Assembly: GCF_001277175.1 (NCBI RefSeq)
Contig: NZ_CP012257.1
Location: 248,001-312,000 of the forward strand
Source of the DNA: Cronobacter universalis NCTC 9529
GTDB lineage: Bacteria; Pseudomonadota; Gammaproteobacteria; Enterobacterales; Enterobacteriaceae
DNA length: 64,000 nucleotides
Reading direction: 5' to 3'
Made by a program: the position numbers and the translations under genes. Under the pieces are notes generated by a model. That model searched no databases and had not been told where the DNA came from. It was given only the letters and a program-made list of their open reading frames with translations. Below, piece by piece: positions 8,264 through 28,476 of the stretch; position 1 is the first letter of the stretch; each line of letters starts with the position of its first letter.

Positions 8264-8348
8264 AGATGTGCCGCTTAGAGCAGGGCATTGCTGCCGAAAG
8301 TGGCGCGAAGTAGTCAGCGAAGCGAGGAGCGTCAGTGTGGCGCTGTGT

Positions 8349-9221: not shown

Positions 9222-9232
9222 TTCACGCTATC

Positions 9233-9285
9233 TATGACGACTGTCATACTTGAATTCGCGAGGCTAGACTATGACGACTGTCTTA
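9233..9285. promoter_or_regulatory. Paired operators between the hydrolase gene and tetR
   Basis: TATGACGACTGTCATA (9233-9248) is a palindrome with perfect 6-bp arms. TATGACGACTGTCTTA (9270-9285) repeats it with one arm base changed. Their centres are 37 bp apart in the divergent promoter region, the expected place for a TetR-type autoregulatory operator. Confidence 0.78.
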
Positions 9286-9299
9286 GCAAGGTTTTTGCC

Positions 9300-9884: not shown

Positions 9885-9947
9885 TATCGTGAAGTATTCG
9901 CACCTAGCCCCGACGATCTTGCAACATGCAGAAGATGATGTGCGCTA

Positions 9948-13777: not shown

Positions 13778-14412
13778 GTCGGCCACCGCAGCAGTTCGTC
13801 GGTGAGCGCGGCGATCTCGCGGGCAGCGGCGCTGTCGGGCGCGGTTTCGCGGGCGAGCCGGCCAGCGGCTACGCTGTCGGCAAAGACGATGCGCTGGTGG
13901 ATCTCCGAGCGCAGCGCGGGCAGCGGCTGTTCGGCCAGCGATTGCCGTGCCTCCCTGCCGATGATGGTGGTGCTGACGCGCCGGTTGATGACGAAGGCCG
14001 CGCGCAGCGCTGGCCGGAACACCTGTGCTTCGCGGATCAGTGCGACCATCTCGGCAGAAGCCCATACGTCGTAGGGGCTGGGCTGCACGGGGATCAGCAC
14101 GCGCTCGGCCGCCAGCAGCGCGGAGCGCGCGAGGGCGGCGATGCGCGGCGGGCCGTCGATGATGATGTGATCGGCCCGCCTAGCGAGTTCTGGCGCTTCC
14201 TGATGCAGCGTTTCGCGGGCAAGTCCCACGGCGCTGAACAGACGGGGCAGGCCCTGCTGGCTACGCCGCTGCGTCCAGTCGAGCGATGACCCCTGCGGGT
14301 CGGCATCCAGCAGGATGACATGCAGGCCGCGCATCGCCAGTTCGCCGGCGATGTGCGTGGCGAGCGTGGTCTTGCCGACGCCGCCTTTCTGGTTGAGAAA
14401 CGCGAAGATCAT
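13774..14412 (-). CDS. parA: ParA-family partition ATPase
   Basis: A 212-residue ParA/MinD ATPase. It has the deviant Walker A motif LNQKGGVGKTTLATH at residues about 6-20, the switch region LLDADPQGSSLDW and Walker B-like HIIIDGPPR. It is short because it lacks the N-terminal DNA-binding domain of plasmid P1-type ParA. It leads the overlapping parA/small partition gene/DUF2840/traF operon. It should stabilise the excised circular form of the ICE together with RepA-driven replication. Confidence 0.92.
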   Translation of the reverse strand: MIFAFLNQKGGVGKTTLATHIAGELAMRGLHVILLDADPQGSSLDWTQRRSQQGLPRLFSAVGLARETLHQEAPELARRADHIIIDGPPRIAALARSALLAAERVLIPVQPSPYDVWASAEMVALIREAQVFRPALRAAFVINRRVSTTIIGREARQSLAEQPLPALRSEIHQRIVFADSVAAGRLARETAPDSAAAREIAALTDELLRWPT

Positions 14413-14564
14413 GGCGCGGCCCTCCGAGCTGGAAAGCCGGCCTGGCCGTGCCGTTTCGTGGTTGTCCACCGAAACGGCGCGCTTCTACTAAAAGTTATGT
14501 ATTTCTTGTTAGGTAAGTTAGAGGGAACGCAAACCCGCGCCGTTGTTGGCTTGCCGGCGTTTTC

Positions 14565-14629
14565 GTACTCCTGATAGCACGAGAGTCGTACTCCTGATAG
14601 CACGATACCCGGTACTCCTGATAGCACGA
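14565..14629. repeat. Three iterons between parA and repA (putative replication origin)
   Basis: The 18-bp sequence GTACTCCTGATAGCACGA occurs exactly three times, at 14565-14582, 14588-14605 and 14612-14629, with 23- and 24-bp periods (about two helical turns). An AT-rich stretch lies beside them at 14486-14525. Iterons directly downstream of a repA gene are the usual arrangement of an oriV bound by its initiator. Confidence 0.82.
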
Positions 14630-14653
14630 GGCCGTCCACAGGTTCTCCCGCAG

Positions 14654-15499
14654 TTATCCCCGTGCCGTATGCGGCACGGGCCGGAAGGTCAGCAACTCGG
14701 TGTTGTCGTCCGGCATCCGCTCGATGCCGAGGACGTAGCCGGGCAGCGACTGCCGCGCTACCAGGGCGCGCACGTCGTAGGCGAAGTCCGAGAAGCGGGC
14801 CGCGCTGCCGGATTTGCGGTACAGGTGTCGGAAGTCGAATTGCCAGCCGTGCTCCTGCCGCCCCCCATGCTTGCGCACCAGGCGGTACAGCCAGCGTTCG
14901 ATACCGCCCTTCAAGCGGAAATAGGCCGGGTCGATGGTAAGCACCAGGGCGGCGTCGAGCACGCCGGCGTAGAACCAGTCCGGCAAGATCAGCTCGATGC
15001 CCAGCGGCGTGCCGCTGGCGTCGGCCAGTTCCTTCCACTCGTTGATCCACGAGAAGCGATGCAAGCGCCTTCCCGTGGTTTCGCGGATGGACGTGGCCAC
15101 CGTGGTCGATTGCAGCCGGTCGAGGGCGGCCTTCAGGCGCTGGTAGTCGTTGAGGGACGTGCCGCGCCCGATGAAGCGCAGAATCTCGTAAGGCGTGGCG
15201 CGTATCCAGCGCGACGGGCGCAGGCCCGCGTCGCGCGCCTCTACGATCTGCGAGGCGGCCCATATCAGCACGTCGGCATCCCATATCGTTGCGATGCCGT
15301 GCTCCTGCGTGCCTTCCACGCGGATGGTGACGTTCCCGCTGCGGAAGTCGATCGGCGCCGTGCGCCGCGACTTGGCAAGCGAGAAGAACGGAAAGGCCAT
15401 CAAGTCCTGGGAATCGCGTGGCGCCATGTCGCCCGGCAGCGCTCGGAACAGATCGAGCTGTTCGCGCTGCGGCAAGGCTTGCCCTGGCGGGCTGGACAT
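14654..15499 (-). CDS. repA: Replication initiator protein RepA
   Basis: A 281-residue protein of the replication initiator A type (RPA family) found on broad-host-range plasmids and Tn4371-like ICEs. Conserved stretches include DLMAYPFFSLAKS-like LMAFPFFSLAKS, IATIWDADVLIWAASQI, RFIGRGTSLNDYQRLKAALDRL and WLYRLVRKHGG. I prefer the ATG at 15499 (MSSPPG) over the GTG at 15511. It probably binds the three iterons just beyond its 3' end, allowing the excised element to replicate. It follows the small HTH gene by 26 bp. Confidence 0.85.
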   Translation of the reverse strand: MSSPPGQALPQREQLDLFRALPGDMAPRDSQDLMAFPFFSLAKSRRTAPIDFRSGNVTIRVEGTQEHGIATIWDADVLIWAASQIVEARDAGLRPSRWIRATPYEILRFIGRGTSLNDYQRLKAALDRLQSTTVATSIRETTGRRLHRFSWINEWKELADASGTPLGIELILPDWFYAGVLDAALVLTIDPAYFRLKGGIERWLYRLVRKHGGRQEHGWQFDFRHLYRKSGSAARFSDFAYDVRALVARQSLPGYVLGIERMPDDNTELLTFRPVPHTARG

Positions 15500-15525
15500 G
15501 GCGAAGGCCACCCACGCGCCGACGG

Positions 15526-15810
15526 TCAGCGGCCATCACGGTAGTCGCCCGCGTGGCGCTCGGCGTATTCGGGATCGGACGTGGCCTCGTAGCTGCGCTG
15601 GTCGGCCCAGGCATCGAGGTCGGACACCGCGTACATGACGCGTCGGCCGAACTTGCGGAACTTGGGGCCGCCGCCGATCACCCGCTGCTTCTCCAGCGTG
15701 CGCGGCGACAGCCGCAGGTAGTCGGCGGCTTCGTCGTTTGTCAGGTAGCGTTGAGGCTGCGAGGTCGCAGTGACGGCAGCGGCGGCAGGCCGCGAGGGAG
15801 CAGGTCGCAT
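15526..15810 (-). CDS. AlpA/excisionase-like helix-turn-helix protein
   Basis: A 94-residue protein with a MerR-type winged helix (YLTNDEAADYLRLSPRTLEKQRVIGGGPKFRKFGRRVMYAVSDLDAWA), the fold of AlpA regulators and excisionases. The ATG at 15810 has GGAGG 8 bp upstream. It lies just ahead of repA, so it may control repA or act as an excision directionality factor; sequence alone does not decide. Confidence 0.8.
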   Translation of the reverse strand: MRPAPSRPAAAAVTATSQPQRYLTNDEAADYLRLSPRTLEKQRVIGGGPKFRKFGRRVMYAVSDLDAWADQRSYEATSDPEYAERHAGDYRDGR

Positions 15811-15923
15811 GGGATGTGCCTCCATCAAACCCGGCCACACCACGCGGCCGGATAGAGGCACTCTCAAGAAAGCAAGGCTTCTTGCTAAGGGACGATTCGC
15901 ACGGGTCGAGAAACGTCCCCCCC

Positions 15924-16694
15924 CTAATGCGACGGGAACATTGGAAGCTGCGCTAGTCGGCGGTAGCCGCCGTGCATCAGCTCATCGCCGCGGCGTACCA
16001 GCCGCCGCACGCGGGCACGCAATGCACTGTCTTTCTGCCAGTCGGCCGCGACGGCATCCGCGCCGAACAGACCTTCGGCCACCTCGCGCAAGGAGGCTCC
16101 CGCGAGGGTCGCGTCGAGCGCTTGCAAGGTATGCAGTTCCAGCAGCGCGGCGGGCGTGGGGCGAGAGCGGGCTGTTGCCACAGGCGCGGCCACGGTTGCG
16201 GCAGATAGCGCATCCAGCTTGGCAGCGAGCGTGCGGTAGCGCGCACAGGGCGTAGCGCAGGCACGTGCGGCGTAGAGGTAGGCCGAGCCTTCTTCCAAAT
16301 CGGGCGCGAGTGCCAGCCGAACGCAGCAGCCTGGCCAATGCGATACGAGCACCAGGCGCTTGCCGTCGTGGGTCAGTTGCTTGCGCCCAGGAATGCGCCA
16401 GAACTCGAAGGTGTGCGCATTGGGCGGTGGGTCGGCGTCGGGGTATAGCTGCACCACGGCATCGTGATCGGGGAACCAAGCAGGATGTGCATCGCGCGCA
16501 TCCAGGCCGGGATCTTCCAGCAGACGCAGGCCCCAGGCCTGCGCCGCGTCTGGCTTGCGACGCCGGCGTAGCCAGTCGCGCCGGTAATTTGGATTCCTGC
16601 GCAAATACTCCCAAGCCAGCGCCGGGCCATCTAGGTGCAGCGTGTAGAGATACGCCGCCGTGGGATACCAGTGTTGGCTGCTGCGGTCAGTCAT
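15924..16694 (-). CDS. DUF2285-domain protein of the ICE core
   Basis: A 256-residue protein; the ATG at 16694 follows GGGAGG. The N-terminal half (WYPTAAYLYTLHLDGPALAWEYLRRNPNYRRDW) is the conserved domain that precedes DUF2285 in mobile-element proteins. The C-terminal part (LHTLQALDATLAGASLREVAEGLFG...RRLVRRGDELMHGGYRRL) has a helix-turn-helix-like arrangement and is the DUF2285 domain. Such proteins are encoded beside repA/alpA genes in ICEs. A regulatory role is likely but unproven. Confidence 0.78.
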   Translation of the reverse strand: MTDRSSQHWYPTAAYLYTLHLDGPALAWEYLRRNPNYRRDWLRRRRKPDAAQAWGLRLLEDPGLDARDAHPAWFPDHDAVVQLYPDADPPPNAHTFEFWRIPGRKQLTHDGKRLVLVSHWPGCCVRLALAPDLEEGSAYLYAARACATPCARYRTLAAKLDALSAATVAAPVATARSRPTPAALLELHTLQALDATLAGASLREVAEGLFGADAVAADWQKDSALRARVRRLVRRGDELMHGGYRRLAQLPMFPSH

Positions 16695-17036
16695 GGCGAA
16701 ACCTCCCTGTTTCTGGGAACGTCGCCACAATTCCGCTGTGCGGGAGCTATCGAATCGCCATCAAGTGGTCATCAAACTCGGGTTACGCTTTAGCTGCTGG
16801 TGTCAAGACAGATTCGCTCCAGTGCATTGCTGAAATCGTCTAAGTGCGACGACTGCACCGCCCGGAAATGGGGTGCAGCATTGAACACCGTGCCGGATCG
16901 CGCGCCTGGGATCATGACTGTTTTGGTCAGGGGTGCACCACCCTGGTGCAAGCATGCGGATCAAGACTTGCCAGGTCTTGGCTAAGACCGAAATAGTCAC
17001 AATGCGATACTTTTGGCCTGGTCGCGCTGGAATGTG
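16695..17036. other. Intergenic region with two inverted repeats
   Basis: No gene is supported in these 342 bp. TGCACCA and TGGTGCA form an inverted repeat around CCC at 16934-16950, and CAAGAC pairs with GTCTTG at 16962-16980. They lie downstream of the DUF2958 gene and upstream of the DUF2285 gene, so they could be a terminator, an operator, or both. Confidence 0.4.
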
Positions 17037-17384
17037 TCAATCGGTGATTGAACCGTTCTCCTGAGCCAGTCGAACGTATTCCGACAGCGGCCGCGTCGGC
17101 TGGAAATACCGATCTCGCATCACCGGCTGCTTGTGCGGCCCGATGATGGACGCCAGATCAGACAGCTTTACCGTCCCCAGCACCGGCATTCCGATCCCGA
17201 GGTCGATCAGGCCGTAGGCCGTATCGCCATCGGTCGGATCGAGCGCGGCCAGTAGCCACGTCGCATGTGCATCCGGTGTGAACAGGCGCACCACTGGCAG
17301 CGGGTCGCATTCCTGCCCTGTGGTGCGTGTGAGGCCGTGGGCCAGCAGCTGCACCCGGTCTTCCTCGGTGACAAGCGTGGTCAA
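17037..17384 (-). CDS. DUF2958 protein of the ICE core
   Basis: A 115-residue protein. I chose the TTG at 17384 (LTTLVTEEDR) because GGAAGGGG lies before it and conserved sequence begins there; upstream codons are rich in Arg/Cys/Ala and look non-coding. Conserved stretches VVRLFTPDAHATWLLAALDP, YGLIDLGIG and RYFQPTRPLSEY identify DUF2958, common on plasmids and ICEs. The function is unknown to me. It is divergent from the HTH gene at 17672. Confidence 0.75.
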   Translation of the reverse strand: MTTLVTEEDRVQLLAHGLTRTTGQECDPLPVVRLFTPDAHATWLLAALDPTDGDTAYGLIDLGIGMPVLGTVKLSDLASIIGPHKQPVMRDRYFQPTRPLSEYVRLAQENGSITD

Positions 17385-17421
17385 GGTCGCGCCCCTTCCA
17401 CGAATACACGCAATCGCCGAG

Positions 17422-17636
17422 GCGCATCTGTGCGTGCGGACGGACGCACAGATGCGCAAGTGCACCAATCCGCAAAAGCGGAGAGGCACGAAGGCGTATG
17501 GGTGGAAGTCAGGAAAGACACGGATGCGGTTCCCTGGGTCTGAGGAAATCCGCAGATGCGGATCTCTGTAAAAGCACGGAAAAGGAAAACAACATCACCA
17601 AATGAACACTATAGATTGTAGCCCTATAGGGCGCAA
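17422..17636. promoter_or_regulatory. Structured divergent promoter region with HTH operator candidate
   Basis: A 14-bp perfect inverted repeat (GCGCATCTGTGCGT and its complement, 8-nt loop) lies at 17422-17457, and a 7-bp one (ATCCGCA/TGCGGAT) at 17548-17563. At 17621-17632 the perfect palindrome GCCCTATAGGGC, flanked by TTG and CAA, lies about 40 bp before the xre gene, overlapping its AT-rich promoter. The last is a good autoregulatory operator candidate. Confidence 0.55.
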
Positions 17637-17671
17637 TGGGCTGTCATCTTGGTTTTTGGGGGAAACCATAG

Positions 17672-17965
17672 GTGGCAGCGAAGAACTCATTGGCAGCGGC
17701 GATTCGGACGGTAAGGAAGGCGCGTGGTTTGAGCCAGGAAGCGTTCTCCAACGTGTCCAGTCGCACCTACATGAGTACGCTGGAGCGCGACCTGAAAAGC
17801 CCAACTATCCAGAAGCTGGCCGATCTGTGCGAGGTCATGGAAGTGCATCCGCTCACGCTGCTGACATTGGCTTATGCCGGCGACAGCACCCGCGAAGCCG
17901 ACCTTTTGCTGGCACAGGTGCGCCAGGAACTTGGGGCGCTATGGGAAGAGCCCGACACGCCGTAG
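17672..17965 (+). CDS. XRE-family helix-turn-helix regulator
   Basis: A 97-residue Cro/CI-type protein with the helix-turn-helix at residues about 8-60 (IRTVRKARGLSQEAFSNVSSRTYMSTLERDLKSPTIQKLADLCEVM). It starts at GTG 17672, after GGGGGAAACC. It is one of the few plus-strand genes in the ICE core and is divergent from the DUF2958 gene. The palindrome at 17621-17632 just upstream suggests autorepression; it may control ICE genes. Confidence 0.88.
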   Translation: MAAKNSLAAAIRTVRKARGLSQEAFSNVSSRTYMSTLERDLKSPTIQKLADLCEVMEVHPLTLLTLAYAGDSTREADLLLAQVRQELGALWEEPDTP

Positions 17966-17992
17966 CGCGTTGGCGTGTGGCGCTGAATTGCA

Positions 17993-18042
17993 GCAAGCGG
18001 AGCGCGCAGCGCCACAGGCGCGGAGGCGTGAGGGATTGAAGC
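17993..18042. ncRNA. Dispersed structured element, copy A
   Basis: The conserved flanks GCAAGCGGAGCGCGCAG and GGAGGCGTGAGGGAT surround a short hairpin (CGCC-aca-GGCG). The same flanks recur at 22572 and 25856 with different but still pairing hairpin sequences. The remaining bases of 17966-18277 hold no gene. The transcribed strand is not certain for this copy. Confidence 0.5.
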
Positions 18043-18277
18043 CGTATGGCGGTGACGGCTTGCCGGCACGGGGCGAAGCCCGAAAGCCCGGCGGCGCTTA
18101 CAGCGCCGACACGCCATAGATCGCTCGTTGACACGGATTGCGAGCCACAAGGCACCCATGCAGGCCCGCCCTGATGGGCGTGTCCAGCACGCGGCAGCGG
18201 CAGAAATCCTGCGCGAGCGGTGCTGCAATCAGCAGCATCGCGCCCCGCCGCAGTGGGCGGGGCGCGCTAAGCGGCTG

Positions 18278-18541
18278 TCAGGCCGCCTTGGGCTTGTTGC
18301 GCGACCAGATCAGGTCGTGCGTGCCATCCTCGTTCTCGATCAGGCGGGCATAAACGGTTGCCGGGAACGAAGGATCGTCGAGGCTCACTGACAGGTAATC
18401 CCGCCCAGCCTCGCTGGTCTTCTTCCACGCCGCGCCGATGTCGTGGCCGACCGCCTGGAGGCGGAAGTCCGGGGCGCTCTCGGCGTCGCCCTTGTCGTTG
18501 GGAACCGGCTTGCGCCCTGACGCGGCCAGGTCAATGCCCAT
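18278..18541 (-). CDS. DUF736 protein, N-terminally short
   Basis: An 87-residue ORF from the ATG at 18541. From residue about 12 on it is a clear DUF736 protein (VPNDKGDAESAPDFRLQAVG, IGAAWKKTSEAGRDYLSVSLDDPSFPATVYARLIE, DGTHDLIWSR). Family members are usually about 105 residues and begin with a beta-strand segment (IGSF..GFTGTI.TLTLNVK) that is absent here, replaced by MGIDLAASGRK. Either the gene is truncated at its 5' end or translation begins in a changed context. Function unknown. Confidence 0.65.
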   Translation of the reverse strand: MGIDLAASGRKPVPNDKGDAESAPDFRLQAVGHDIGAAWKKTSEAGRDYLSVSLDDPSFPATVYARLIENEDGTHDLIWSRNKPKAA

Positions 18542-18838
18542 GACAAGGCAAGAGCGCCCCTGCCGCAGCTCGCGGCCACATGCTTGAGGCGTGGTGTGGA
18601 AGCTCCATAGAAGCGAGGCCGGGCGGCGTGTCGGTGAACCGTCCTTCGTGACGTACAGACAACGAACCGCCAGCGTCGGGGACGGCACGCTTTCGTGCAA
18701 CCTGCCGCGGCAAGCCGGGGCGTAGCCGCGCAAGCCCCGCCCATTGCGGCGGGGCGCGGTCGAATCGTCGGCGGCGCGATGCGCCGCCAGCACTTGCTGG
18801 CTTCGTGGGTTCTTCGCGCACAAGCGCCGTTGTGCGCG

Positions 18839-18966
18839 GCCCCTTCGCCGCCTGACCGAAGGCGGCGAAGGGGCGTTTTGACTTTGAGCAGTGAAACCGG
18901 GCGCGGCCACCGCCGCGCCCGGAGTTTTGACCACCGGCCCCAAGGCGGAACGGCTTGGGGCCGGTG
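18839..18966. repeat. Three strong hairpins in tandem
   Basis: Stem 1 (18839-18874) has 13 or more bp (CCCCTTCGCCGCC and complement). Stem 2 (18897-18922) has 11 bp (CCGGGCGCGGC). Stem 3 (18932-18966) has 13 bp (CACCGGCCCCAAG). Stems 1 and 2 are each followed on the plus strand by GTTTTGAC within 4 bases. They lie after the stop of the gene at 18974 (minus strand) and before the DUF736 gene. The rest of 18542-18838 shows no gene. Confidence 0.75.
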
Positions 18967-18973
18967 CGGCTCG

Positions 18974-19183
18974 TTATTCCTTGGTTTCGATGATCCACCA
19001 CACGGCGCGCGGCAAGGCGCGGCCCGTGATCGGATGCAGGTCGGTCAGGTCGGCGCGGGCCGTCCAGCTACGCGACGGACGGTAGCCGCGCACGTCGCCA
19101 TCGCCATGCCAGCGGCGGGCACGCACCGTGCCGGAGGCGTAGGTCGCCGCCATGCGGGGGCGGTTTGCGGGTTGGTGGGTCAT
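18974..19183 (-). CDS. Small basic hypothetical protein of the ICE core
   Basis: A 69-residue ORF from the ATG at 19183, preceded by GAGGATG. It is Arg/Trp rich (VRARRWHGDGDVRGYRPSRSW) and ends WWIIETKE. It has no domain I recognise. Its position directly after the parB gene with a 61-bp gap, a good ribosome site and typical codon use support a real gene. Confidence 0.6.
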   Translation of the reverse strand: MTHQPANRPRMAATYASGTVRARRWHGDGDVRGYRPSRSWTARADLTDLHPITGRALPRAVWWIIETKE

Positions 19184-19244
19184 GGCAGGCATCCTCGACA
19201 TGAAGCGCCCCAGCCGGAACCGGGGCGCTATCTACGGTGCGAAG

Positions 19245-21320
19245 TCACGCGGCCAAAGCCTCGGCCTGCGGCTGGTCATCCGCCACGGCGGCCGCTTGTT
19301 CCAGCGCTTCGGCTTCGCCATCCGCAGGCACGTCCTGCCCGGCCTGCTGCGGGCCTTCGGTGCGGAAGATGGCGGGCATCCAGCCGGTGCCAGCGGCCAG
19401 CCGTTCGGCTTCGCTGGCAATGTCGCCCTTCTTCAACTTCGCCAGTCGGGTGACGTGCGAGGGCGCTAACTCGCCAACGGCTTCCAGAATCGCTGCCTTC
19501 GGCACATGCCGGAAATAACCCTCATTGGTGGGCTGCCACCACGCGGCCATATCCAGCCCCACGGCCTGCGCTAGTTCCGCGCCGGGCTGGTGCGGCGTGG
19601 CGCGAGGCGTCACCACGTCCACCGTGGAAGCTGCGCACACTGCCAGCAGCCGCACCAGTTCATCCTGTGATTTCGCCAGCAGCGCAGCGAACAGTTCGGC
19701 GCTGTCCTCCGGCAAGGTTTCGCCTGCCACCTGTTGCAGTTCGCGCAGCGCCACGGCGGCGGGTGATTCCGGCCAGTCCGGGGCCATGCGTTCCAGCCGG
19801 TCTTGCACCGTGAGGCGCACGCCCAGCGGCAGCTCGTGGCCGTAGTGGCTTTCCTGCAAGACGGTCTGCACCATGCCATGCACCACGGCGGCCAGCGCGG
19901 CTTGCGGATGCCGGGCCACTTCGATTTGCAGCGCGGCGGTACGGTGCGCGCTCAACCGCTGCGCCAGTCGGTCGGACATTGTGGCGGTCTTGGGCTGCTC
20001 GTCGTCCTCGCCTTCGCCTTCGTCCTCGTTCGCGGCTTCGCCTTCGCTGCCGAAACCCTGCCGCAGCCGTTCCAGCGTGCGCAGTGCCTTGGCCTCCGCT
20101 TCGCGCAGCAGCCCGCGATGAATCGCGGCCTGCCCGTCGCGGTCGATGGTGACGATGGCACCGGCTGCGGCTTTCACATTGGCCGCATAGTCCAGCAAGC
20201 TATCGTCCAGCGCCTGCAACTGCTCGCCCAGGCGTTCGCCTTCTTCCTGCAAGGCATCGGCCTTTTCCTCGTCCTCGTCATCCAGCGCGGCATCCACCGC
20301 CTCGGCCAGTTCGTGCAGCTTGGTTTGCAGCTTCTCGATGCGCTGCGCGTCGCGCTTGTTCGGGCTGCGGCGTTCCCTTGGAGCACGCTGGAAGGCTTGC
20401 AAATCCGCATGGGTCATGCCCGGCGTGGCATCCACCCACGCCCAGCCCTCGGCCTTCACCATGGCGGCGATACCTGCCAGCTTGTCTTGCGCCAGCCGTT
20501 CCAGCAGTGCGGCATCGGTCAGATACACGCCTTTGTCGCCCTCCGCGAACAGGTCGCGGCGGATGCCACCGCCTTCCTGCTCGTAGCCGTCCAGCCCGAC
20601 AAAGCGCACCAGCGGATGCCGGTAGGCGTCGATTTCGCGTTCGGTCAGACGGTCGCGCAGGTTGTGCGGGCTGCGCTGCCATGTCGGCGCACCGTAGAAC
20701 GCGGCTTCCTGCGCGGCGTGGTCGTCGGTGATGGCAAGGGCCATCAACTGGTCAAGGCTCACGACCTCGGCGCGATAGTCGGCCAGCAGGCGCGGCGAGA
20801 CGTTGGCAAGTTTCAAGCGGCGCTGCACCACCAGCGGCGTGACGGAAAAATCCGCTGCAATATCCTCGATGCTGCGGCCTTCGCCCACCAGCGCGGCGAA
20901 CGCCTCGAACTGGTCGGCGGGGTGCATGGCTTCTCGCTGCACGTTCTCGGTCAGGCTGGCCGTGCGTGCGGTGCCATCGGCCACCAGCAGGCAAGGCACC
21001 TCCCATTCCTTGCTGATGCGGTGCTTCTTCGCCAGCAGCTTCAACGCTGCGAGGCGACGGCCACCGGCCACGACTTCGTAATGCTTGCCATCGGCGGCGG
21101 CAATCACGATGAGGTTTTGCAGCAGGCCGACACGCTGGATGCTGGCGGCGAGTTCGGGAATGGACATGCGCGGGGTCTTGCGCACGTTGCGGCCAGTGGG
21201 GCGCGACACCAGCCGCGACAGCGGAACCAGAATCAGGTTCTTGGTCGGATCAGCGGCTTCCAGCGGGATAGCGGCGGCGGTGTTGATGGCGCGGGCTTCG
21301 GTTTGGGTAACGGCGTTCAT
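19245..21320 (-). CDS. parB: Large ParB/Spo0J-like nuclease-domain protein
   Basis: A 691-residue protein starting at ATG 21320 after AGGAG. The N-terminal ParB/Srx domain shows VVAGGRRLAALKLL and TENVQREAMHPADQFEAF, followed by a helix-turn-helix (SIEDIAADFSVTPLVVQRRLKLANVSPRLL). The middle is a long acidic coiled coil (about residues 380-480, with DEDEEKADALQEEGERL and ANEDEGEGEDDEQ). Such long ParB-like proteins are core genes of Tn4371-type ICEs and many broad-host-range plasmids. A role in segregation, regulation or nuclease activity is possible. Confidence 0.88.
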   Translation of the reverse strand: MNAVTQTEARAINTAAAIPLEAADPTKNLILVPLSRLVSRPTGRNVRKTPRMSIPELAASIQRVGLLQNLIVIAAADGKHYEVVAGGRRLAALKLLAKKHRISKEWEVPCLLVADGTARTASLTENVQREAMHPADQFEAFAALVGEGRSIEDIAADFSVTPLVVQRRLKLANVSPRLLADYRAEVVSLDQLMALAITDDHAAQEAAFYGAPTWQRSPHNLRDRLTEREIDAYRHPLVRFVGLDGYEQEGGGIRRDLFAEGDKGVYLTDAALLERLAQDKLAGIAAMVKAEGWAWVDATPGMTHADLQAFQRAPRERRSPNKRDAQRIEKLQTKLHELAEAVDAALDDEDEEKADALQEEGERLGEQLQALDDSLLDYAANVKAAAGAIVTIDRDGQAAIHRGLLREAEAKALRTLERLRQGFGSEGEAANEDEGEGEDDEQPKTATMSDRLAQRLSAHRTAALQIEVARHPQAALAAVVHGMVQTVLQESHYGHELPLGVRLTVQDRLERMAPDWPESPAAVALRELQQVAGETLPEDSAELFAALLAKSQDELVRLLAVCAASTVDVVTPRATPHQPGAELAQAVGLDMAAWWQPTNEGYFRHVPKAAILEAVGELAPSHVTRLAKLKKGDIASEAERLAAGTGWMPAIFRTEGPQQAGQDVPADGEAEALEQAAAVADDQPQAEALAA

Positions 21321-21400
21321 GGTGATAACTCCTATCTGTTCAGGGATGCAGCAGCGAAGAAAGCGACAAGGGCTGCTGCCTGCCCTTGCCGCGTAGGGAT

Positions 21401-22228
21401 TCAGGCTTTCAACTGGCGCATGCCATCGGCCAGCAGCCAGAGGGCACGATTCAGTCGGATGTTTTGGTCGATGCCCTGCACCGGGCGGGTTTGCTGGCGG
21501 CGCCCGTTGGCGCTGCGGCCACGCAGTCCGCCTTGGGTCAGGTTTTCTTGGGTGCGGTTGAACACGCTCCACAGGTCGGGGCGGCGGTCGTCGAAGCGGC
21601 GCGGCATCAGGATTTGCGATTCCGTGATGGGCGCGGGCTTGTCCGGGTCGTCGTACTTGAGGGCGAGCGCGGCGCGGGCGAACACTTCGGATTCGCCATC
21701 GTCCAAGGTGATGCCGCGCATGGCATCGCGCGATTCCTTCACCCGGTCGAAACCGCTCAAGACTTCGTAAGCGCCCTCAATGACCAGACCGGCCACGTCG
21801 CCTTTATGGGGCACTCGCACATCGGCCACGGCGTTGCCGCAGACAAGGCCATTGCTGCACACGAACCGGAACATTCCGGCCAGCATCTGATAGCTGCTGG
21901 TGCCGTCGTGCGAGTTCAGCAGCACGATTTCGTTGGCCTCCGCGCCGTTGATCTGGCTGGCGTGGCGCAAGCGAATCATGTGTTTGGTGTGCTCGCGCTT
22001 GCCTTCATCGCGCACGCGGGTTTGCGTCACCATGAAAGGCTGGAAGCCTTCTTTGCGAAGCTCGGTCAGCACGGCGGCGGTGGGGATGTAGGCATACCGC
22101 TGCGAACGGCTCTCGTGCGGCGCGTCCGCGAAGATGGACGGGGCCACGCGGTGAATCTGGTCGTCGGACAGCGGGTAATCGCTGCGCAGCGAGGGGGAGC
22201 GGGAAGCGAAACGGGATGCGAGTTGCAT
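21401..22228 (-). CDS. DUF932 protein (phage/plasmid-like)
   Basis: A 275-residue protein; the ATG at 22228 has AGGAGAAAG just before it. Conserved DUF932 stretches are SRSQRYAYIPT, GEANEIVLLNSHDGTSSYQML-like AEANEIVLLNSHDGTSSYQM, FRFVCSNGLVCG and VLSGFDRVKESRDAM. The family is widespread on plasmids, phages and ICEs; its biochemical role is unknown to me. It lies 80 bp ahead of parB. A long structured leader (22398-22635) lies upstream. Confidence 0.85.
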   Translation of the reverse strand: MQLASRFASRSPSLRSDYPLSDDQIHRVAPSIFADAPHESRSQRYAYIPTAAVLTELRKEGFQPFMVTQTRVRDEGKREHTKHMIRLRHASQINGAEANEIVLLNSHDGTSSYQMLAGMFRFVCSNGLVCGNAVADVRVPHKGDVAGLVIEGAYEVLSGFDRVKESRDAMRGITLDDGESEVFARAALALKYDDPDKPAPITESQILMPRRFDDRRPDLWSVFNRTQENLTQGGLRGRSANGRRQQTRPVQGIDQNIRLNRALWLLADGMRQLKA

Positions 22229-22397
22229 GGTCTTTCTCCTGACAAAAGAGGTTTGCTGTTCACACCGCACACCGGATTCCTAGATTCGGAGCCCAGCCTT
22301 TCGGCTGTTCGGTGCGGTCGGCACGAGGAACCCGGTTGGCCCTGTTGCCACCGTCTTTCCTGAGTTCATCGCCCGCGACGGTCAGGAGCGCGCGGAC

Positions 22398-22482
22398 GGG
22401 GGCTGTCAAGGAAACAAGCGCAGGGTTGGTGCGGCCCGCAGGCGCAGCCGAGGACACGGCCCTGCGCGCCTTGACGGCCCCC
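22398..22482. ncRNA. Long hairpin upstream of the DUF932 gene
   Basis: GGGGGCTGTCAAGG (22398-22411) pairs with CCTTGACGGCCCCC (22469-22482) as a 14-bp stem with one G-U pair. Inside it GCGCAGGG (22418-22425) pairs with CCCTGCGC (22460-22467). A related CCTTGACGGC occurs at 25774-25783 in the leader of radC. The remaining 22229-22397 has no gene. A structured RNA is likely; strand and function are unknown. Confidence 0.5.
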
Positions 22483-22571
22483 GGCCGCGGGCTACAGTCG
22501 CGGACAAGGTGATGAAGTCAGGGAAGACGGCTGGACATGGCAACGGCCTCCCCTGTGTGCCGAACCGCACG

Positions 22572-22635
22572 GCAAGCGCAAGCGCGCAGGCCCGAAGCTG
22601 GAAGCCGGGCCGTAGGCGTCAGCGATACGGAAGGC
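22572..22635 (-). ncRNA. Dispersed structured element, copy B (leader of the DUF932 gene)
   Basis: It has flanks related to copies A and C (GCAAGCGCAAGCGCGCAG and TAGGCGTCAGCGAT) around a hairpin GGCCCG...CGGGCC whose sequence differs from the other copies. It lies 344 bp upstream of the DUF932 start. I assign the minus strand because that is the direction of the adjacent gene. Confidence 0.5.
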
Positions 22636-22777
22636 TGGCAAAGCCAGTCCCGCCAGGGATGAGCGACTAGCGAACCTGGAGCAGCGCGATCCGCGAAGCG
22701 GAGACGCAAGAGGACTCTTCGTTTACCATTTGTTTCGCAAGCAAATGATGGGAAAGCAAGAACACGGAGATCTAGAA

Positions 22778-25081
22778 ATGATTGTCTGCATCAACCGCCT
22801 CAAACAGTTCGGAATCTTCAGCGACTTCAATGGAACGAAGATCCAAAAGTTTGGCCGGTACAACCTGGTCTATGGTTGGAATGGAACAGGCAAGTCAACG
22901 CTATCGAATCTATTCTCTTGCTTTGAGCTTCGCTCGATGGTTCCCCGCTTCAGCACGGGCCAATTTTCAGTAGTTCTGGAGGATGGCTCAACGATCACGG
23001 AATCCACACTCCACTCATCCCAATTGAATATTCATGTTTTCAATCAACGCTTCGTGCATGAGAACATTGATTGGGACAAATCCGTAAAAAGCATCCTTCT
23101 TATTGCGAAAGAGAAGATTGATGACTTGCAGAAGCTGGAGAAGCTGAAGAGCGAGCTTCAGTCGAAAAAGAAGGCTCACGACGACAAGCAAAGCGATATC
23201 AAGAAGCAACGTGAGTCATTGGAGAAATTCCTGACCAATGCTGCCAAGAAAATGAAGCTTGGACTTCAGGCGATTGATACGAGCGACAGTTATTACTTGA
23301 ATTACGACCGCCGCAAGCTCTCCAACTTCATACAGAATAATGGCGAGACAATTATCAAGGCGGAGTCGGTTCTTCCAGATGAGAGGGTTATCGACCTTAC
23401 GAATGCCGCCAAGCCAGATCAGCTTCCAAGCATTGCTTTCGCCTCAACGGCCATTGAGCCGGACTATTTTAAGAAAGCGGCGGGCCGCATCAGAGATTTG
23501 ATTGGGACTACGGCGGTCAATCAAGCAATCCAGCGGCTGACCGATAACCCGGACATCCGCGAATGGGTTCAAGCAGGCTTGGAAATCCATAAAAACCACG
23601 ACTCGCAATCCTGCGAGTTCTGCGGCGCTACGTTTACCCAGCTTCGTGCCGAGGCGCTTGCTGCCCACTTCAGCAAGGAGTTCACGGAGTTTCAGAGCCG
23701 ACTTCAGAACGCGGCGACATGGATTGAATCTCAAGGCGCTCCAGCTAATCAGCTTCCCGCATCGACCGAGTTTTATAAAGAACTATCGGCCGAGGCAGAG
23801 AAGCTTCAAAACGACTACGCAACTGCTGCTGAAAAGATCGACCAGCAAATGGACGGATGGCGGGAAGCCCTGAAGGCCAAGATCACAGACCCTGGGAAGA
23901 CAGACATTCAGATCTCGGATGTGGTTGAAGACGATGTCACCAATTTCAATGACATCCTGAAGTCGATTGTTTCTCTCGTCGGAAAGCACAACAATAAGAC
24001 TTCAAATTTCAAATCTGAGACCTCAAAAAGCAAGGTGGCACTGGAGCTTCACTTTGCTGCGGCTGAGGTGCAAGAATTTGACTATGCTGGAAGTGAGAAG
24101 AAGTGCAATGACCTTGAGTTAGAAGCAAAGAACGACCATAAGGAAATTGAAAAAATTAGTCAAGAGGTCGGAGCCATAGAAGCGATGCTCTCGAATGAAA
24201 CGGTCGGGGCAAAGGAGTTCAATGACATCCTACATCGCTTCATTGGCCGCTCTGAGCTTTGCCTGAACTTCAATCAGAAGAAGAAAGGCTATGAGATCAT
24301 CAGAAACGGGGTTGGTGAGCACGATGGGAATTTGAGCGAAGGTGAGAAGACTGCGATTGCATTTGTCTATTTCATCACGAAGCTCAAAGAAAATGGAAAT
24401 AACATCAAGGATACGATCGTCGTCGTTGATGATCCGGTCTCAAGCTTTGATTCTAATCACTTGTTTCACGCCTACTCGTTCCTGAGAACGCAATGCACTG
24501 AAGCCAAGCAGCTTTTTGTGCTGACTCACAACTTCACGTACTTTAAGCTAGTGAGAGATTGGTTCACTGGCACCAATAGGAATCGAGTCAAAAAAGGCAA
24601 CACCGAGAATTGCTTCTTTTATCGCCTGGATGCGCCACCTGGCTCCCCTCGTCATTCCCAACTTGTGGATGCCGACGACTCACTGAAGAACTACGGTTCC
24701 GAATATCACTATATCTTCAAGAAGCTCTACGAATACAGGGCGCACACGACACTCAATCGAGATGAGGCGTTCTTGACCGCCAACCTCGCCCGAAAGCTTG
24801 TTGAATCGTTCTTCACCTTCAAATATCCAAGGCGGCGAAGCGACATTAGTCAATTGATGGAGGCTGGCCTAAAAGATTGCACCATCACGACACCAGAGCT
24901 TAAAGAAAAAATATACCGCTTTATCAATAAGTATTCACATAGCGACGTTATTGAGATAACAGAGGAATCCGCAGAAAACTTGGCAGGCGAAAGCCACAGC
25001 GTCATCGGGCACATCTTCCAGTGGCTGGAAGAGGTGGACAAGAGACATTACGACGAGATGATTCAGGTTGCGACGGCCTGA
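22778..25081 (+). CDS. rloC: RloC-like ABC ATPase with zinc hook, putative anticodon nuclease
   Basis: A 767-residue protein; the ATG at 22778 has CGGAG 8 bp upstream. Walker A GWNGTGKST (33-41), ABC signature LSEGEK (519-524), Walker B IVVVDDP (aspartates 551-552) and LTHN form a PrrC/RloC-type (AAA_13) ATPase. A coiled coil (about 115-165) precedes CEFC (279-282), the zinc-hook CxxC that separates RloC from PrrC. In the C-terminal domain R672, E676 and H721 (ARKLVE...NKYSHSD) match the R-x3-E...H set of PrrC nucleases, though the E-H spacing (45) exceeds that of PrrC. RloC cleaves tRNA anticodons after DNA damage or phage attack. It is visibly less GC-rich than its neighbours, is on the opposite strand and has no restriction genes nearby, so it looks like recently gained cargo. 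Confidence 0.72.
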   Translation: MIVCINRLKQFGIFSDFNGTKIQKFGRYNLVYGWNGTGKSTLSNLFSCFELRSMVPRFSTGQFSVVLEDGSTITESTLHSSQLNIHVFNQRFVHENIDWDKSVKSILLIAKEKIDDLQKLEKLKSELQSKKKAHDDKQSDIKKQRESLEKFLTNAAKKMKLGLQAIDTSDSYYLNYDRRKLSNFIQNNGETIIKAESVLPDERVIDLTNAAKPDQLPSIAFASTAIEPDYFKKAAGRIRDLIGTTAVNQAIQRLTDNPDIREWVQAGLEIHKNHDSQSCEFCGATFTQLRAEALAAHFSKEFTEFQSRLQNAATWIESQGAPANQLPASTEFYKELSAEAEKLQNDYATAAEKIDQQMDGWREALKAKITDPGKTDIQISDVVEDDVTNFNDILKSIVSLVGKHNNKTSNFKSETSKSKVALELHFAAAEVQEFDYAGSEKKCNDLELEAKNDHKEIEKISQEVGAIEAMLSNETVGAKEFNDILHRFIGRSELCLNFNQKKKGYEIIRNGVGEHDGNLSEGEKTAIAFVYFITKLKENGNNIKDTIVVVDDPVSSFDSNHLFHAYSFLRTQCTEAKQLFVLTHNFTYFKLVRDWFTGTNRNRVKKGNTENCFFYRLDAPPGSPRHSQLVDADDSLKNYGSEYHYIFKKLYEYRAHTTLNRDEAFLTANLARKLVESFFTFKYPRRRSDISQLMEAGLKDCTITTPELKEKIYRFINKYSHSDVIEITEESAENLAGESHSVIGHIFQWLEEVDKRHYDEMIQVATA

Positions 25082-25146
25082 GCATCAGGCCGAGGGCCAT
25101 AGCTATGCCACCAGGCGCAGCAAAAAGGGGCCGAAGCCCCCTTGGG

Positions 25147-25656
25147 CTAGATCAGCCCATGCTCGGCGAACGATGCCGTTTCGTTGCCCGCAACGATGAT
25201 GTGATCGAGCACGCGCACGTCCACCAGACCCAACGCTTCCTTGAGCCGCTGGGTCAGCGCCCGGTCAGCCGCGCTCGGCTCGGGGTTTCCGCTCGGATGG
25301 TTGTGCGAAACGACGACCGCCGCCGCATTGAGTCGCAGCGCCTCCTTGACCACTTCGCGCGGATACACCGATGCACCGTCAATGGTGCCGTGGAACATCT
25401 CCCTGTATTCGATCAGACGATGGCGCGTATCCATGAACAGCACTGCGAACACCTCATGCTCGAAGCTGGCCAACTTTGTACGCAAATATTCCTTGACCGC
25501 CGCCGGCGAAGTGAACTCTGCTCTGCGCTGCATTTTCCGGTCAATGACCTGGCGCGCAGCTTCCAGGATGTCGTCGGCCGATGCCGGTAGATAGCGCCCA
25601 TGCGCGTCGCGCACCAGCAGAGTGGAATCGAACGAGGGAAAGGACAGTTGCGACAT
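25147..25656 (-). CDS. radC: RadC-family JAB-domain protein
   Basis: A 169-residue protein of the short plasmid/ICE RadC type with the JAB/MPN metal-binding motif VVSHNHPSGNPEPSAAD near residue 115. It lacks the helix-hairpin-helix half of chromosomal RadC. Despite the name, a DNA-repair role is not established for this family. It is a conserved marker gene of Tn4371-like ICEs. Its leader holds structured element C (25856). Confidence 0.92.
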   Translation of the reverse strand: MSQLSFPSFDSTLLVRDAHGRYLPASADDILEAARQVIDRKMQRRAEFTSPAAVKEYLRTKLASFEHEVFAVLFMDTRHRLIEYREMFHGTIDGASVYPREVVKEALRLNAAAVVVSHNHPSGNPEPSAADRALTQRLKEALGLVDVRVLDHIIVAGNETASFAEHGLI

Positions 25657-25855
25657 GATCGTGCTCCGGTTGCTCGGGCGGAATTGCCCGGAACCGGCGA
25701 CAGCACGGCGCAGCGCAAGCAGTCAGGGGTCGCAGACGGCCGCCAGGACGCAAGCGCGCATGGCGCGCGCCGCCCTTGACGGCGAGAACGCCGTGATACG
25801 GTGAAGGGAACAGCAAGACCGCCCACACCCGCCCACTGCACAGAGTCGATTTTTG

Positions 25856-25917
25856 GCAAGCGGAGCGCGCAGGCCCGGATCAACGAGCCGGGACGGAGGC
25901 GTCAGTGATGGAAGCCC
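25856..25917 (-). ncRNA. Dispersed structured element, copy C (leader of radC)
   Basis: The flanks GCAAGCGGAGCGCGCAG and CGGAGGCGTCAGTGAT surround a CCCGG...CCGGG hairpin. The element lies 200 bp upstream of radC and 98 bp after the stop of the nuclease gene. It may be an example of the radC RNA motif, a conserved structure known from leaders of radC and other mobile-element genes; I propose this from position and structure only. The rest of 25657-26015 holds no gene. Confidence 0.55.
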
Positions 25918-26015
25918 GACAGGGGCGAGACTCGCGCAGCGAAGCTCGATGCGCAGCACGACAGCACGACAGCGCGACGGCGGCACGCCGGGACGCCCGA
26001 CTGCTTGGGACAGGA

Positions 26016-27080
26016 CTACTCGTTGTCGGTCTTGCGCTGCTCGATCTGCAACTGCGCCCGTTGCGTTGCCTGTTGCAGCCGCTCCACCAGCACGCCCCTC
26101 GGCGGCAAGGCGGTCAGATACTCGGCAACGTGGATGCCGGACTTGTCCAGCTCCAGCAATTCGATCTGCTCGCGCTTCTTGCCGGTGCAAAGGATGATCC
26201 CGAGCGGCGAGGCTTCCTCCGGCTCCCGTTCGTGCTTGTCTAGCCACCGAAGGTAGAGCTCCATCTGCCCTTTGTAGGCCGCCTTGAAGTCACCTACCTT
26301 CAACTCCACCGCCACCAGCCGCCGCAGCTTGCGGTTGTAGAACAGCAGGTCAAGGTGGAAATCCTCGTCGTCGATCGGAATGCGCTTCTGCCGGGCGACG
26401 AATGAGAAGCCCGCGCCCAGCTCCAGCAGGAAGGACTCCATTTCACGGATGATCGCCGCTTCCAAGTCGCCTTCCTGCCAAGTGTCCCGCAGGCCCAGGA
26501 AGTCGAGGATGTACGGGTCGCGCATGACCAGGGCCGGCGACATGCGCTGCGCATCGCGCAGGGTCGCCAACTCCTGCGCTATGGTTTCTTCGGGCTTTTG
26601 GGAAAGCGCCGTGCGCTCGTACAGCATCGAGTCGATACGCTCGCGCAGCGTCCGCACGCTCCAGCGTTGGGTGCTGGCCATCTGTGCGTAGTAGTCCCGC
26701 TGGAGCGGGTCTTTCAGCGGCATCAGGGCGATGAAGTGCGTCCAGCTTAATTCTCGTATCAGTGATACGAGAATTCGCTCGTCGGGGAAGGTGGCGGCGA
26801 ACTGCACCATGCGGCGCAAGTTCTGCTCTGCAAAGCTGCTGCCGTACTCCTCCACCAACTGCGCAGCCAAGGTGGGCAGAACTTCCTTACCGTAGGCGCC
26901 CCGGCGCCCGTCCAAGACCTGCGTGTGGATGCGCTGGCCGATGCGCCAGTAGAGCATCGTAAGCTCGCTATTCACCGTCGAGGCGGCGCGCTTGCGCGCC
27001 GCCTCGATCAGTGCCCGAATGTCGCCCAGCAGCGCCGCAGGAGCTGCGAGCGATGCTGCTGATGACCGGCGCCCGTTCAT
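26016..27080 (-). CDS. YhcG/DUF1016-type PDDEXK nuclease
   Basis: A 354-residue protein. The N-terminal DUF1016 domain (TMLYWRIGQRIHTQVLDG, AQLVEEYGSSFAEQNLRRM, ELSWTHF) precedes a C-terminal PD-(D/E)XK nuclease core (FHLDLLFYNRKLRRLVAVELKVGDF, then GQMELYLRWLDKHE). Homologues occur near restriction-modification systems and on ICEs, where they are often accessory. The ATG at 27080 overlaps the integrase stop (ATGA), so it is co-transcribed with int. A 27-bp perfect palindrome (26749-26775) lies within its coding sequence. Confidence 0.88.
   Translation of the reverse strand: MNGRRSSAASLAAPAALLGDIRALIEAARKRAASTVNSELTMLYWRIGQRIHTQVLDGRRGAYGKEVLPTLAAQLVEEYGSSFAEQNLRRMVQFAATFPDERILVSLIRELSWTHFIALMPLKDPLQRDYYAQMASTQRWSVRTLRERIDSMLYERTALSQKPEETIAQELATLRDAQRMSPALVMRDPYILDFLGLRDTWQEGDLEAAIIREMESFLLELGAGFSFVARQKRIPIDDEDFHLDLLFYNRKLRRLVAVELKVGDFKAAYKGQMELYLRWLDKHEREPEEASPLGIILCTGKKREQIELLELDKSGIHVAEYLTALPPRGVLVERLQQATQRAQLQIEQRKTDNE
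26749..26775. repeat. 27-bp perfect palindrome inside the nuclease gene
   Basis: Arms of 13 bp (AATTCTCGTATCA and its exact complement) flank one central base. The stretch is AT-rich and uses codons rare in this GC-rich gene (ATA, TTA) in the segment LVSLIREL. It looks like a protein-binding site kept within a coding sequence. Confidence 0.7.
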
Positions 27081-28276
27081 GCCACCGCCTCCGCAAGCTG
27101 CCGCGCGCCCGTGATGGCTTGGCGGCGGCTGGCCACCAACTCGGCCGCCTCGCGCACCGGCTTGTCCTCGGTGTGGACGTAGTGCATGAACATCGCCACG
27201 GTCTTGTGGCCCGTCAGCTTCATGCCCACTTTGGTCGGCACACCGGAATTGGCAATGTCGGTGGTCGAGCGATGACGGATGCCGTGCGTGCCAACGTGCG
27301 GCACGCTGGCGGCCTTGAGCGTCCGGCACCAGCCGCCATAGTGCTCGCCAAAGGTTAGGTGCTTCGCCGGGTCGTTCGGCGACGGCAGGACGTAAGGGCA
27401 GCCTTCCAGCCGCGGCGCCGTCGAAAGCAGCCGATAGGCTTCCTCGCTCATGGGCTTGGAAATGCCGCCAACCTTGCTGTCGGGCCACACCACGCGCCGG
27501 TTCTCGAAGTCCAGCCAGCTCCATTCGAGCGGGCAGATTTCGGAGCGCCGTGCCGCAAACTCGAATTGCAGCCGGATCGCCAACGGGATGACGTAGTTCT
27601 CCAGCCCCTCCGCCTCCAGTTTCTCCAACTGGCGGAAGATCCGCACCATTTCCTCGTCCACGATGAGCCGGGTTTCCTTGCCAGGCGGGTACATCGGGAC
27701 GTGACGGCACGGGTTCGTGCCGTCCGGGCGGAAGCCCCACACTTCGGCCAGGTTGAACATCTTGCGTAGCACGCCGAAGGTCTTGTTGGCCTCGGTCGGC
27801 TTGTAGGCCAGCTTTTCCATCAGCCCCGCAATGTCGGGCCGCTTCACGTCATGTGCCTTCTTGCGGCCCAGCAGTGGGATGATGTTGCGGTCGATGACGC
27901 CCTGGTAGCCGTCCTGCGTGCTGACCTTGTTGCGCTTCTTGGAGTAGTCCTCCATGAACTTCTTGCACAACTCGGCCATTGTGGGCGCCTTGCGCGCCTC
28001 GGCCTTGGCGCCGCCGGGGTCGCCACCCCGGCGAACCTCGGCCAGCCAGTCCTGCGCTTTGACCCGCGCCTGTTCGACGGTTAGTTCCCCGTAGAGTCCC
28101 AGCGAGGGCTTGCGGGGCTGGCCAGAGTTCGTGCGGTACTGGAGCATGAACACCCGGCGCCCCGTCGGGGTAATCTTGCAAAGGAAGCCGGGCACGACGG
28201 TATCCCGTAGTTCGATGTCCTTCGCCTGGGGTTGCGCCGACTCTACGGCGGTCTTGGTGAGCTTGATCTTTGCCAT
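27077..28276 (-). CDS. int: Tyrosine recombinase integrase of the ICE
   Basis: A 399-residue site-specific recombinase of the Tn4371 type. An N-terminal DUF4102-like arm-binding region (LTKTAVESAQPQAKDIELRDTVVPGFLCKI) and a SAM-like core-binding domain precede the catalytic domain. Visible catalytic residues are Arg in ARRSEICPLEW, Lys in DSKVGGISKPM, His-x-x-Arg in THGIRHRSTT, His in LTGHKTVAMF and the Tyr in MHYVHTED. It is the last ICE gene before the chromosome, pointing inward, as in Tn4371. It should catalyse excision and integration downstream of hemY. Confidence 0.93.
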   Translation of the reverse strand: MAKIKLTKTAVESAQPQAKDIELRDTVVPGFLCKITPTGRRVFMLQYRTNSGQPRKPSLGLYGELTVEQARVKAQDWLAEVRRGGDPGGAKAEARKAPTMAELCKKFMEDYSKKRNKVSTQDGYQGVIDRNIIPLLGRKKAHDVKRPDIAGLMEKLAYKPTEANKTFGVLRKMFNLAEVWGFRPDGTNPCRHVPMYPPGKETRLIVDEEMVRIFRQLEKLEAEGLENYVIPLAIRLQFEFAARRSEICPLEWSWLDFENRRVVWPDSKVGGISKPMSEEAYRLLSTAPRLEGCPYVLPSPNDPAKHLTFGEHYGGWCRTLKAASVPHVGTHGIRHRSTTDIANSGVPTKVGMKLTGHKTVAMFMHYVHTEDKPVREAAELVASRRQAITGARQLAEAVA

Positions 28277-28453
28277 GATGACTCCTTGGAACGACCCGGA
28301 TTCCAGGAGCCAGATAGGAGCGGCGCGAGGGAGAACCGGGTCAAGTTTCAGAAAGCACCGGCATATGATGAACGCGCGTAAGCTATTGATAAACCTGCTG
28401 TATAGGGCTACGCCGCAGTCCAGCGAACTACCGGGCTGGAGTCATCGTGAAAC

Positions 28454-28476
28454 AAAAAACCCCTCCGAAGAGGGGT
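28454..28476 (-). terminator. hemY operon terminator
   Basis: On the minus strand ACCCCTC pairs with GAGGGGT around a 4-nt UUCG-type loop and is followed by six T. It lies directly after the hemY stop. It marks where chromosomal sequence is intact; the ICE end lies just beyond. Confidence 0.9.

Follow-up and report, generated by a model that had tools for sequence, protein, structure and literature searches.

We find that a Tn4371-type ICE in Cronobacter universalis NCTC 9529 carries, as cargo, a gene whose product is very probably an RloC-family protein, in which an ABC/Rad50-like ATPase interrupted by a CXXC insert is joined to a predicted C-terminal ribonuclease domain of the PrrC/RloC type. 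More interesting than the gene itself is its context: it lies in a cassette bordered by a repeat, at a site where Tn4371-type ICEs are rich in candidate defence genes. The window analysed here is a stretch of 64,000 nt (NZ_CP012257.1, positions 248,001-312,000, forward strand), and all coordinates in Table 1 refer to it.

The gene opens with an ATG preceded, about 8 nt upstream, by GGAG, and the frame stays open further upstream (821 codons in all; the PGAP product in one relative has 818 aa). The reading frame and motifs described by an original prediction, made from the letters of the window, are all in place (Table 1). The ABC-ATPase motifs required of RloC (Walker A, signature, Walker B and the switch His) are present without exception, and the CXXC hook sits between the ATPase halves, in an insert of a length and position that fit RloC. 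The C-terminal motif NKYSHSD occupies residues 717-723 and is followed by 44 further residues. With a GC content of 47.8%, the gene is more AT-rich than its ICE neighbours (radC 60.8%, DUF932 63.6%, Int 64.6%, ParB 66.5%), as had been predicted, and locus comparison likewise bears out its position between the DUF932 and radC genes, both on the opposite strand.

Table 1 Coordinates of the features discussed in the text (positions in the window; A3 is the 40-sequence alignment)
Feature	Position	Strand	Remarks
rloC-like gene	22778..25081	+	767 aa plus stop; ABC-ATPase halves split by long CXXC-hook insert, predicted C-terminal nuclease domain
Walker A GWNGTGKST	22874..22900	+	Residues 33-41; G38 and K39 in 40/40 rows of A3
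Zinc-hook-like CEFC	23612..23623	+	Residues 279-282; C279 and C282 in 40/40 rows of A3
ABC signature LSEGEK	24332..24349	+	Residues 519-524
Walker B VVVDDP	24419..24436	+	Residues 548-553
R672-x3-E676 of predicted nuclease triad	24791..24805	+	A3: R in 40/40; E in 37/40, D in 2, K in 1
S720-H721 of predicted nuclease triad	24935..24940	+	A3: S and H in 40/40
DUF932 gene	21401..22270	-	ICE backbone, left flank; ORF from GTG, PGAP start later
radC	25147..25656	-	Same exchangeable segment as rloC
DUF1016/PDDEXK nuclease gene	26016..27080	-	ICE backbone; placed by comparison with L029
Tyrosine integrase of ICE	27077..28276	-	Locus comparison
Left border repeat, ~52 nt	22571..22622	+	Common ICE DNA ends at 22622/22623 in 38/47 scaffolds
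Second border-repeat copy, beyond radC	25855..25914	+	79-80% to left copy

Membership of the RloC family is well supported at the level of sequence. Profile searches, which the original prediction had proposed as a check on its reading of an RloC-like anticodon nuclease, gave matches to AAA_13, PDC-S06 and PrrC models: Pfam AAA_13 was matched over its whole length by residues 10-748 (E=1.2e-210), the last 167 aa alone matched the C-terminal part of that profile (3.2e-30), and among PADLOC models PDC-S06 was matched at full length (3e-174) and PrrC over residues 517-750 (6.5e-9). PDC-S06 is a single-gene candidate defence family, a broad bin of several models whose name implies no mechanism. 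Our placement follows published motif definitions together with PADLOC-model hits rather than direct comparison with characterised RloC or PrrC sequences. In the published account, RloC combines the ABC motifs of PrrC with a coiled-coil/CXXC insert, is 658-897 aa long, is rarely linked to restriction-modification (R-M) genes of type I or III, and has the triad Arg-X3-Glu-X36-52-His, often with Ser before the His (PMC2610378). At 767 aa (818 with the PGAP-type start) our protein falls inside this size range, and it has in common with the RloC proteins of Geobacillus kaustophilus and Acinetobacter baylyi ADP1 the ATPase motifs, the CXXC hook between the halves and the R-x3-E-x36-52-SH pattern. 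As with those proteins, no linked R-M partner was seen, within the HsdR search and the annotation described below; a difference is that the present gene is carried in an ICE cassette with radC. These family matches and RloC features, taken together, support the RloC-like assignment of the original prediction, with tRNA cleavage as a predicted activity.

PrrC also possesses an ABC-ATPase and a C-terminal Arg-Glu-His set, but it is described as a protein of 341-416 aa with linked type I R-M genes and no hook insert (PMC2610378, PMC3874168). The protein studied here differs in size and in having the hook, and searches with HSDR_N (PF04313) and HSDR_N_2 (PF13588) found no match in the host genome, whereas the same searches were positive in 9 and 4, respectively, of 14 control genomes. 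Size, hook and the lack of an HsdR match do not fit PrrC. The claim that the gene stands alone, away from type I restriction genes, thus holds for HsdR by the host-genome search, and in one annotated relative no R-M gene is annotated beside rloC. Sequence searches of solved structures, using phmmer with the protein and a profile of 17 relatives, returned matches to the ATPase domain (5da9, AriA, Rad50) and chance matches to the coiled coil; they returned no RloC or PrrC structure, and nothing convincing was found with the C-terminal profile, for which the best match was a designed protein (E=0.0035).

The three triad residues call for particular caution. The bare pattern R-x3-E-x36-52-H occurs a second time at residue 91 of the same protein, and it was present in 1850 of 5000 shuffles (37%) of the last 167 aa, so we dropped the three residues by themselves as proof of family. 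Stricter patterns were much scarcer among the 5000 shuffles (187 with SH in place of H, and 10 with N-x2-R-x3-E-x36-52-SH). Because the bare pattern is frequent by chance, the argument for a triad becomes one of conservation across the family. In a first alignment (A2; 17 sequences, 18-92% identity), there is no variation at C279, C282, N669, R672, E676 or S720, and at least 90% of rows keep H721. In a larger one (A3; 40 sequences, 17-98% identity), N669 joins the residues conserved in every row (Table 1), and the Glu-His spacing is 36-44. A3 comprises 9 closer rows (the window, seven genome loci and L096) and 31 rows from viral contigs, the latter chosen for coverage from 62 ORFs of which the unchosen ones are more variable. 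The complete motif set is present in 40 of these 62 viral-contig ORFs (some of them duplicates), with a further 2 having D at position 676, and in 13 of 23 genome relatives. One relative (L018, 10001-12289), whose frame is otherwise intact, has K where E676 would stand and is perhaps an inactivated nuclease. The original prediction had considered that the closest relatives might be AAA_13 ATPases devoid of the C-terminal triad, and had been uneasy about the distance from Glu to His; the triad proves to be conserved in A3, and the 44 residues between E676 and H721 lie inside the X36-52 given for RloC (PMC2610378).

A profile-profile comparison points in the same direction, if modestly: hhalign aligned the C-terminal profile with the C-termini of seven PrrC-model hits at a probability of 65% (E=6e-5), triad upon triad, pairing RKLVE with LRSILE and RFINKYSH with RLINVLSH. 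Against the same PrrC set, a more distant AAA_13 subgroup reached 1.3% and a control set of four distant AAA_13-like ORFs 0.09%. This alignment also bears on the nature of the RNA that such a nuclease would cut. An RloC-shaped ABC-ATPase-HEPN ribonuclease could act on something other than the tRNA anticodon loop, for example on mRNA, rRNA or another part of a tRNA, given that RNA targets vary across the HEPN superfamily (PMC3710099), that substrate specificity is not readable from sequence, and that R714-x6-H721 fits the general HEPN motif Rx4-6H. However, R714 is an arginine in only 27 of the 40 rows of A3, from which it follows that the invariant arginine within A3 is that of the PrrC/RloC triad, R672; together with the alignment to PrrC-model hits, this leads us to regard a target outside the anticodon loop as unlikely.

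The rloC-like gene, its C-terminal domain included, is under purifying selection. Whole-gene dN/dS was 0.04-0.07 in comparisons with L010, L011, L012, L014, L015, L026 and L096 (87-94% identity; 7 of 13 comparisons) and 0.14 against the nearly identical L002, while for L016-L020 it was not computable, synonymous sites being saturated. For the C-terminal domain the ratio was below that of the whole gene in all 6 computable comparisons, in 5 of which synonymous sites are near saturation. That the protein is instead a Rad50/SMC-like DNA-maintenance ATPase, its C-terminal domain structural rather than nucleolytic, we consider highly improbable: the hook and ATPase do resemble Rad50, and the bare triad pattern is as common in shuffled sequence as noted above, yet R672, S720 and H721 are invariant across A3, the C-terminal domain is both under purifying selection and alignable with PrrC, and an Mre11/SbcD-like partner is not annotated beside the gene. 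A tree of 47 rows groups the protein of the window, with good support, with L016-L020 and further proteobacterial copies; L056 is the neighbour of this clade, and the PrrC rows lie elsewhere. Several branches are long, so that the deeper branching should not be relied on.

The surrounding DNA belongs to an ICE with the gene order ParB-DUF932-[rloC, radC]-DUF1016-integrase, in which rloC is divergent from the DUF932 gene and convergent with radC. From relaxase to integrase, positions 9956-28459 are collinear with positions 7060-25950 of an annotated ICE copy (L029) at 94-97% identity, which supports the original assignment to the Tn4371 type, and the backbone order (int, radC region, DUF932, parB, repA, parA, S26 peptidase, relaxase) was encountered as in Tn4371-family elements. 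The element is confined between an Arg-His-Leu-Pro tRNA cluster at its far side, the last gene of which ends about 28.07 kb to the left of the window, and a point about 28.4 kb inside the window, giving a length of at most ~56.5 kb, which fits the 42-70 kb published for Tn4371-family ICEs (PMC2789088). An exact copy of the published attB 8-mer (TTTTTCAT) was not seen at the int end, and the ICE ends are approximate. A chromosomal stretch with rmuC, udp, ubiE and ubiB is 78% identical to E. coli; this stretch and the tRNA cluster agree with the enterobacterial host that had been predicted. To the right of the ICE stand genes that, from their ORF sizes, we take to be hemYXDC and cyaA. Upstream of the DUF932 gene, two stretches of ~100 nt in inverted orientation (22312-22411 and 22469-22570) are ~73% alike and also occur in related ICEs. 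Another genome of the host genus (G005) has the ICE segment too (L031), with an rloC that is 99.9% identical.

To place the gene within the wider diversity of these elements, we sampled related ICEs by their DUF932 gene, obtaining 47 scaffolds from 32 genomes: 7 (L191-L197), and 40 (L230-L269) taken, in order of DUF932 similarity, from the matches listed for one family, in which 62 of 399 genomes have a DUF932 match at E<=1e-100. Most of the 32 genomes belong to one family, and when compared over the initial 4 kb beyond the border the scaffolds fall into 37 groups, so that they do not represent 47 independent events. None of the 47 carries rloC (tblastn, E<=1e-8), a result that gives no frequency for Tn4371-type ICEs at large but rules out rloC as a part of every such element. 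In 38 of the 47, the DNA in common with the window stops at the left border (Table 1) and is followed by other cargo; the remaining 9 left ends fall at 22412, 22597 (2), 22631 (2), 22633 (2), 22710 and 22725. On the right, 5 of the first 7 scaffolds match the window again from 25654-25675 onwards, the exceptions being L194 and L196. From these left ends and resumption points we delimit an exchangeable unit of ~22624-25653, consisting of rloC and radC.

A repeat of ~52 nt ends at the left edge of this unit and is found next to cargo segments both here and in related ICEs; in the same 38 scaffolds the common DNA breaks off at nucleotide 51-53 of its first copy. Each of the 47 scaffolds contains the repeat at least once, and 30 contain it at least twice, as scanned with a model that was built from copies in loci afterwards scanned, L191-L197 included. 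A single fold yields a hairpin, and an Rfam search over 22200-26300 found nothing above the gathering score, the repeat included. A functional pairing of rloC with radC was also considered and dropped: the close homologues L014, L016-L020 and L022 have no match to this RadC in flanks of up to 10 kb, and a radC match is present in 16 of the 47 rloC-free scaffolds.

What replaces rloC in other elements is frequently another candidate defence gene. We scanned with PADLOC 50 hand-picked proteins, mostly the largest ORFs; 22 of the 47 scaffolds supplied 42 of them, and the rloC-bearing L011, L023 and L026 the other 8. The matches concern individual proteins and not whole systems, at E-value cut-offs of 1e-5 (first batches: L191-L197, L011, L023, L026) or 1e-20 (later scaffolds), and in six scaffolds the ORF interval was delimited with a DUF1016 query cut 10 bases out of frame. 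Of the 22 scaffolds scanned, 14 yielded defence-gene matches: PDC-S06 (L191, together with PD-Lambda-3_B, and L194), LmuA and LmuB (L195, and L196 together with GajA), GajA (L232), PDC-M68B (L235), IetS (L239 and L261), a restriction enzyme matched in part (L246), HamB (L248), type IIG (L253), Drt3a and Drt3b (L255), SspC (L258) and PDC-M48B (L266). Proteins scanned from L192, L193, L197, L236, L250, L259, L265 and L267 had no PADLOC match; by eye, the cargo of L193 is transport-like. Among rloC-bearing ICEs, additional defence-like genes encode kinases in L011 and a methyltransferase and a IIG enzyme in L026, and two proteins from L023 had no PADLOC match.

On these comparisons, the DUF932-integrase interval is a cargo site rich in predicted defence genes, with a left border that is precise to the base. 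We propose, tentatively and as a possibility to which we give somewhat less than an even chance, that Tn4371-type ICEs possess a dedicated site for the exchange of defence cassettes, at which the ~52-nt repeat would mark the left edge and act as the recombination point, and single defence systems (RloC with RadC, and Gabija-, Lamassu-, DRT3- and Hachiman-type systems, among others) would be swapped between elements and bacterial families. The family description in PMC2789088 places variable ORFs, including RadC-like ones, after int; from that account we know neither of a border repeat nor of defence cargo between the DUF932 and integrase genes. RloC has been reported on a “defense ICE” of Pseudomonas aeruginosa (PMC13231603), so that its presence on an ICE is common to both cases, although the passage concerned names no ICE family and the main text does not contain the term “Tn4371”. 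Searches of the open-licence literature turned up neither RloC nor a defence-cassette site with such borders in Tn4371-type ICEs, a negative that is weak evidence for novelty.

Beyond the window, searches with tblastn found matches in 165 of 72,556 PLSDB plasmid records (identity is 95-99% in 88 of them, 80-90% in 1 and under 60% in 76), the commonest genera being Pseudomonas (26), Enterobacter (25), Citrobacter (20), Klebsiella (16) and Salmonella (12). Typing gives IncHI1B,IncP for one carrier and IncP,rep_cluster_1115 for another, and among the matches listed the plasmid copies are annotated only as AAA family ATPase, ATP-binding protein or hypothetical protein. An rloC-like gene is present in 2 of 5,426 E. 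coli genomes, on plasmids in both cases, and 8 of 50,697 phage records contain a match, none above 25% identity. Across 27 genome loci, ICE markers adjoin the gene in 19 but not in the other 8 (L013, at a contig edge and with a DNA match that extends into radC; L014; L016-L020; L022). One intact relative, 48% identical, is found on a viral contig (L101), ~1 kb downstream of an ORF that appears integrase-like by eye, and is possibly a prophage-carried RloC.

Some copies have decayed. Of the 27 genome copies, five are broken, a single assembly accounting for two; rloC is interrupted or frame-broken in L022, L023, L024, L027, L028 and L097, and one plasmid copy (H37) is split by an insertion of ISPa33. 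Broken copies suggest a cost in some hosts, and while they fit a costly gene, they also fit a dispensable one.

Carriage by a conjugative element and by large plasmids (123 of the 165 matching plasmid records are typed conjugative), the cassette common to rloC and radC, and a zinc-hook ATPase that suggests sensing of DNA ends would all be in keeping with a protein that serves the ICE itself, by excluding or punishing plasmids, prophages or other ICEs that compete with it, or by forming an addiction or stress module, with phage defence secondary. Other ICEs, however, place unrelated defence genes at the same site, so that no single ICE function is tied to it, and we consider such a role rather unlikely, though more than negligible.

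As architecture and residues are the same, the best bet is that the mechanism is that of characterised RloC. Toxicity and in vivo tRNA cleavage by G. kaustophilus RloC depend on each of R692, E696 and H737, and zinc-hook mutations raise activity (PMC2610378), while A. baylyi RloC is switched on by an inducer of DNA breaks (PMC3874168). By analogy, the ATPase and hook would restrain the nuclease, and breaks in DNA, or damage that a phage does to the DNA of its host, would release it; the nuclease would then cut tRNA in the anticodon loop, and the resulting stop in translation may abort the infection. As no antitoxin or restriction partner would be needed, rloC could travel as a single gene; here it presumably moves together with radC, the two forming an exchangeable cassette between the DUF932 and integrase genes of a Tn4371-type ICE.

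If so, the ICE would bring a putative tRNA-cleaving defence into an enterobacterium, as the original prediction had suggested. RloC is listed among defence systems without a test against phage (PMC12322248, PMC10999674), and a natural RloC is now at hand for a direct test of its role in phage defence. The sharply bordered cassette site may also be mined for single defence systems of Tn4371-type ICEs, among them any encoded by ORFs there that have no PADLOC match. More broadly, a broad-host-range ICE seems to spread a self-contained, predicted tRNA nuclease among enterobacteria, pseudomonads and other proteobacteria.
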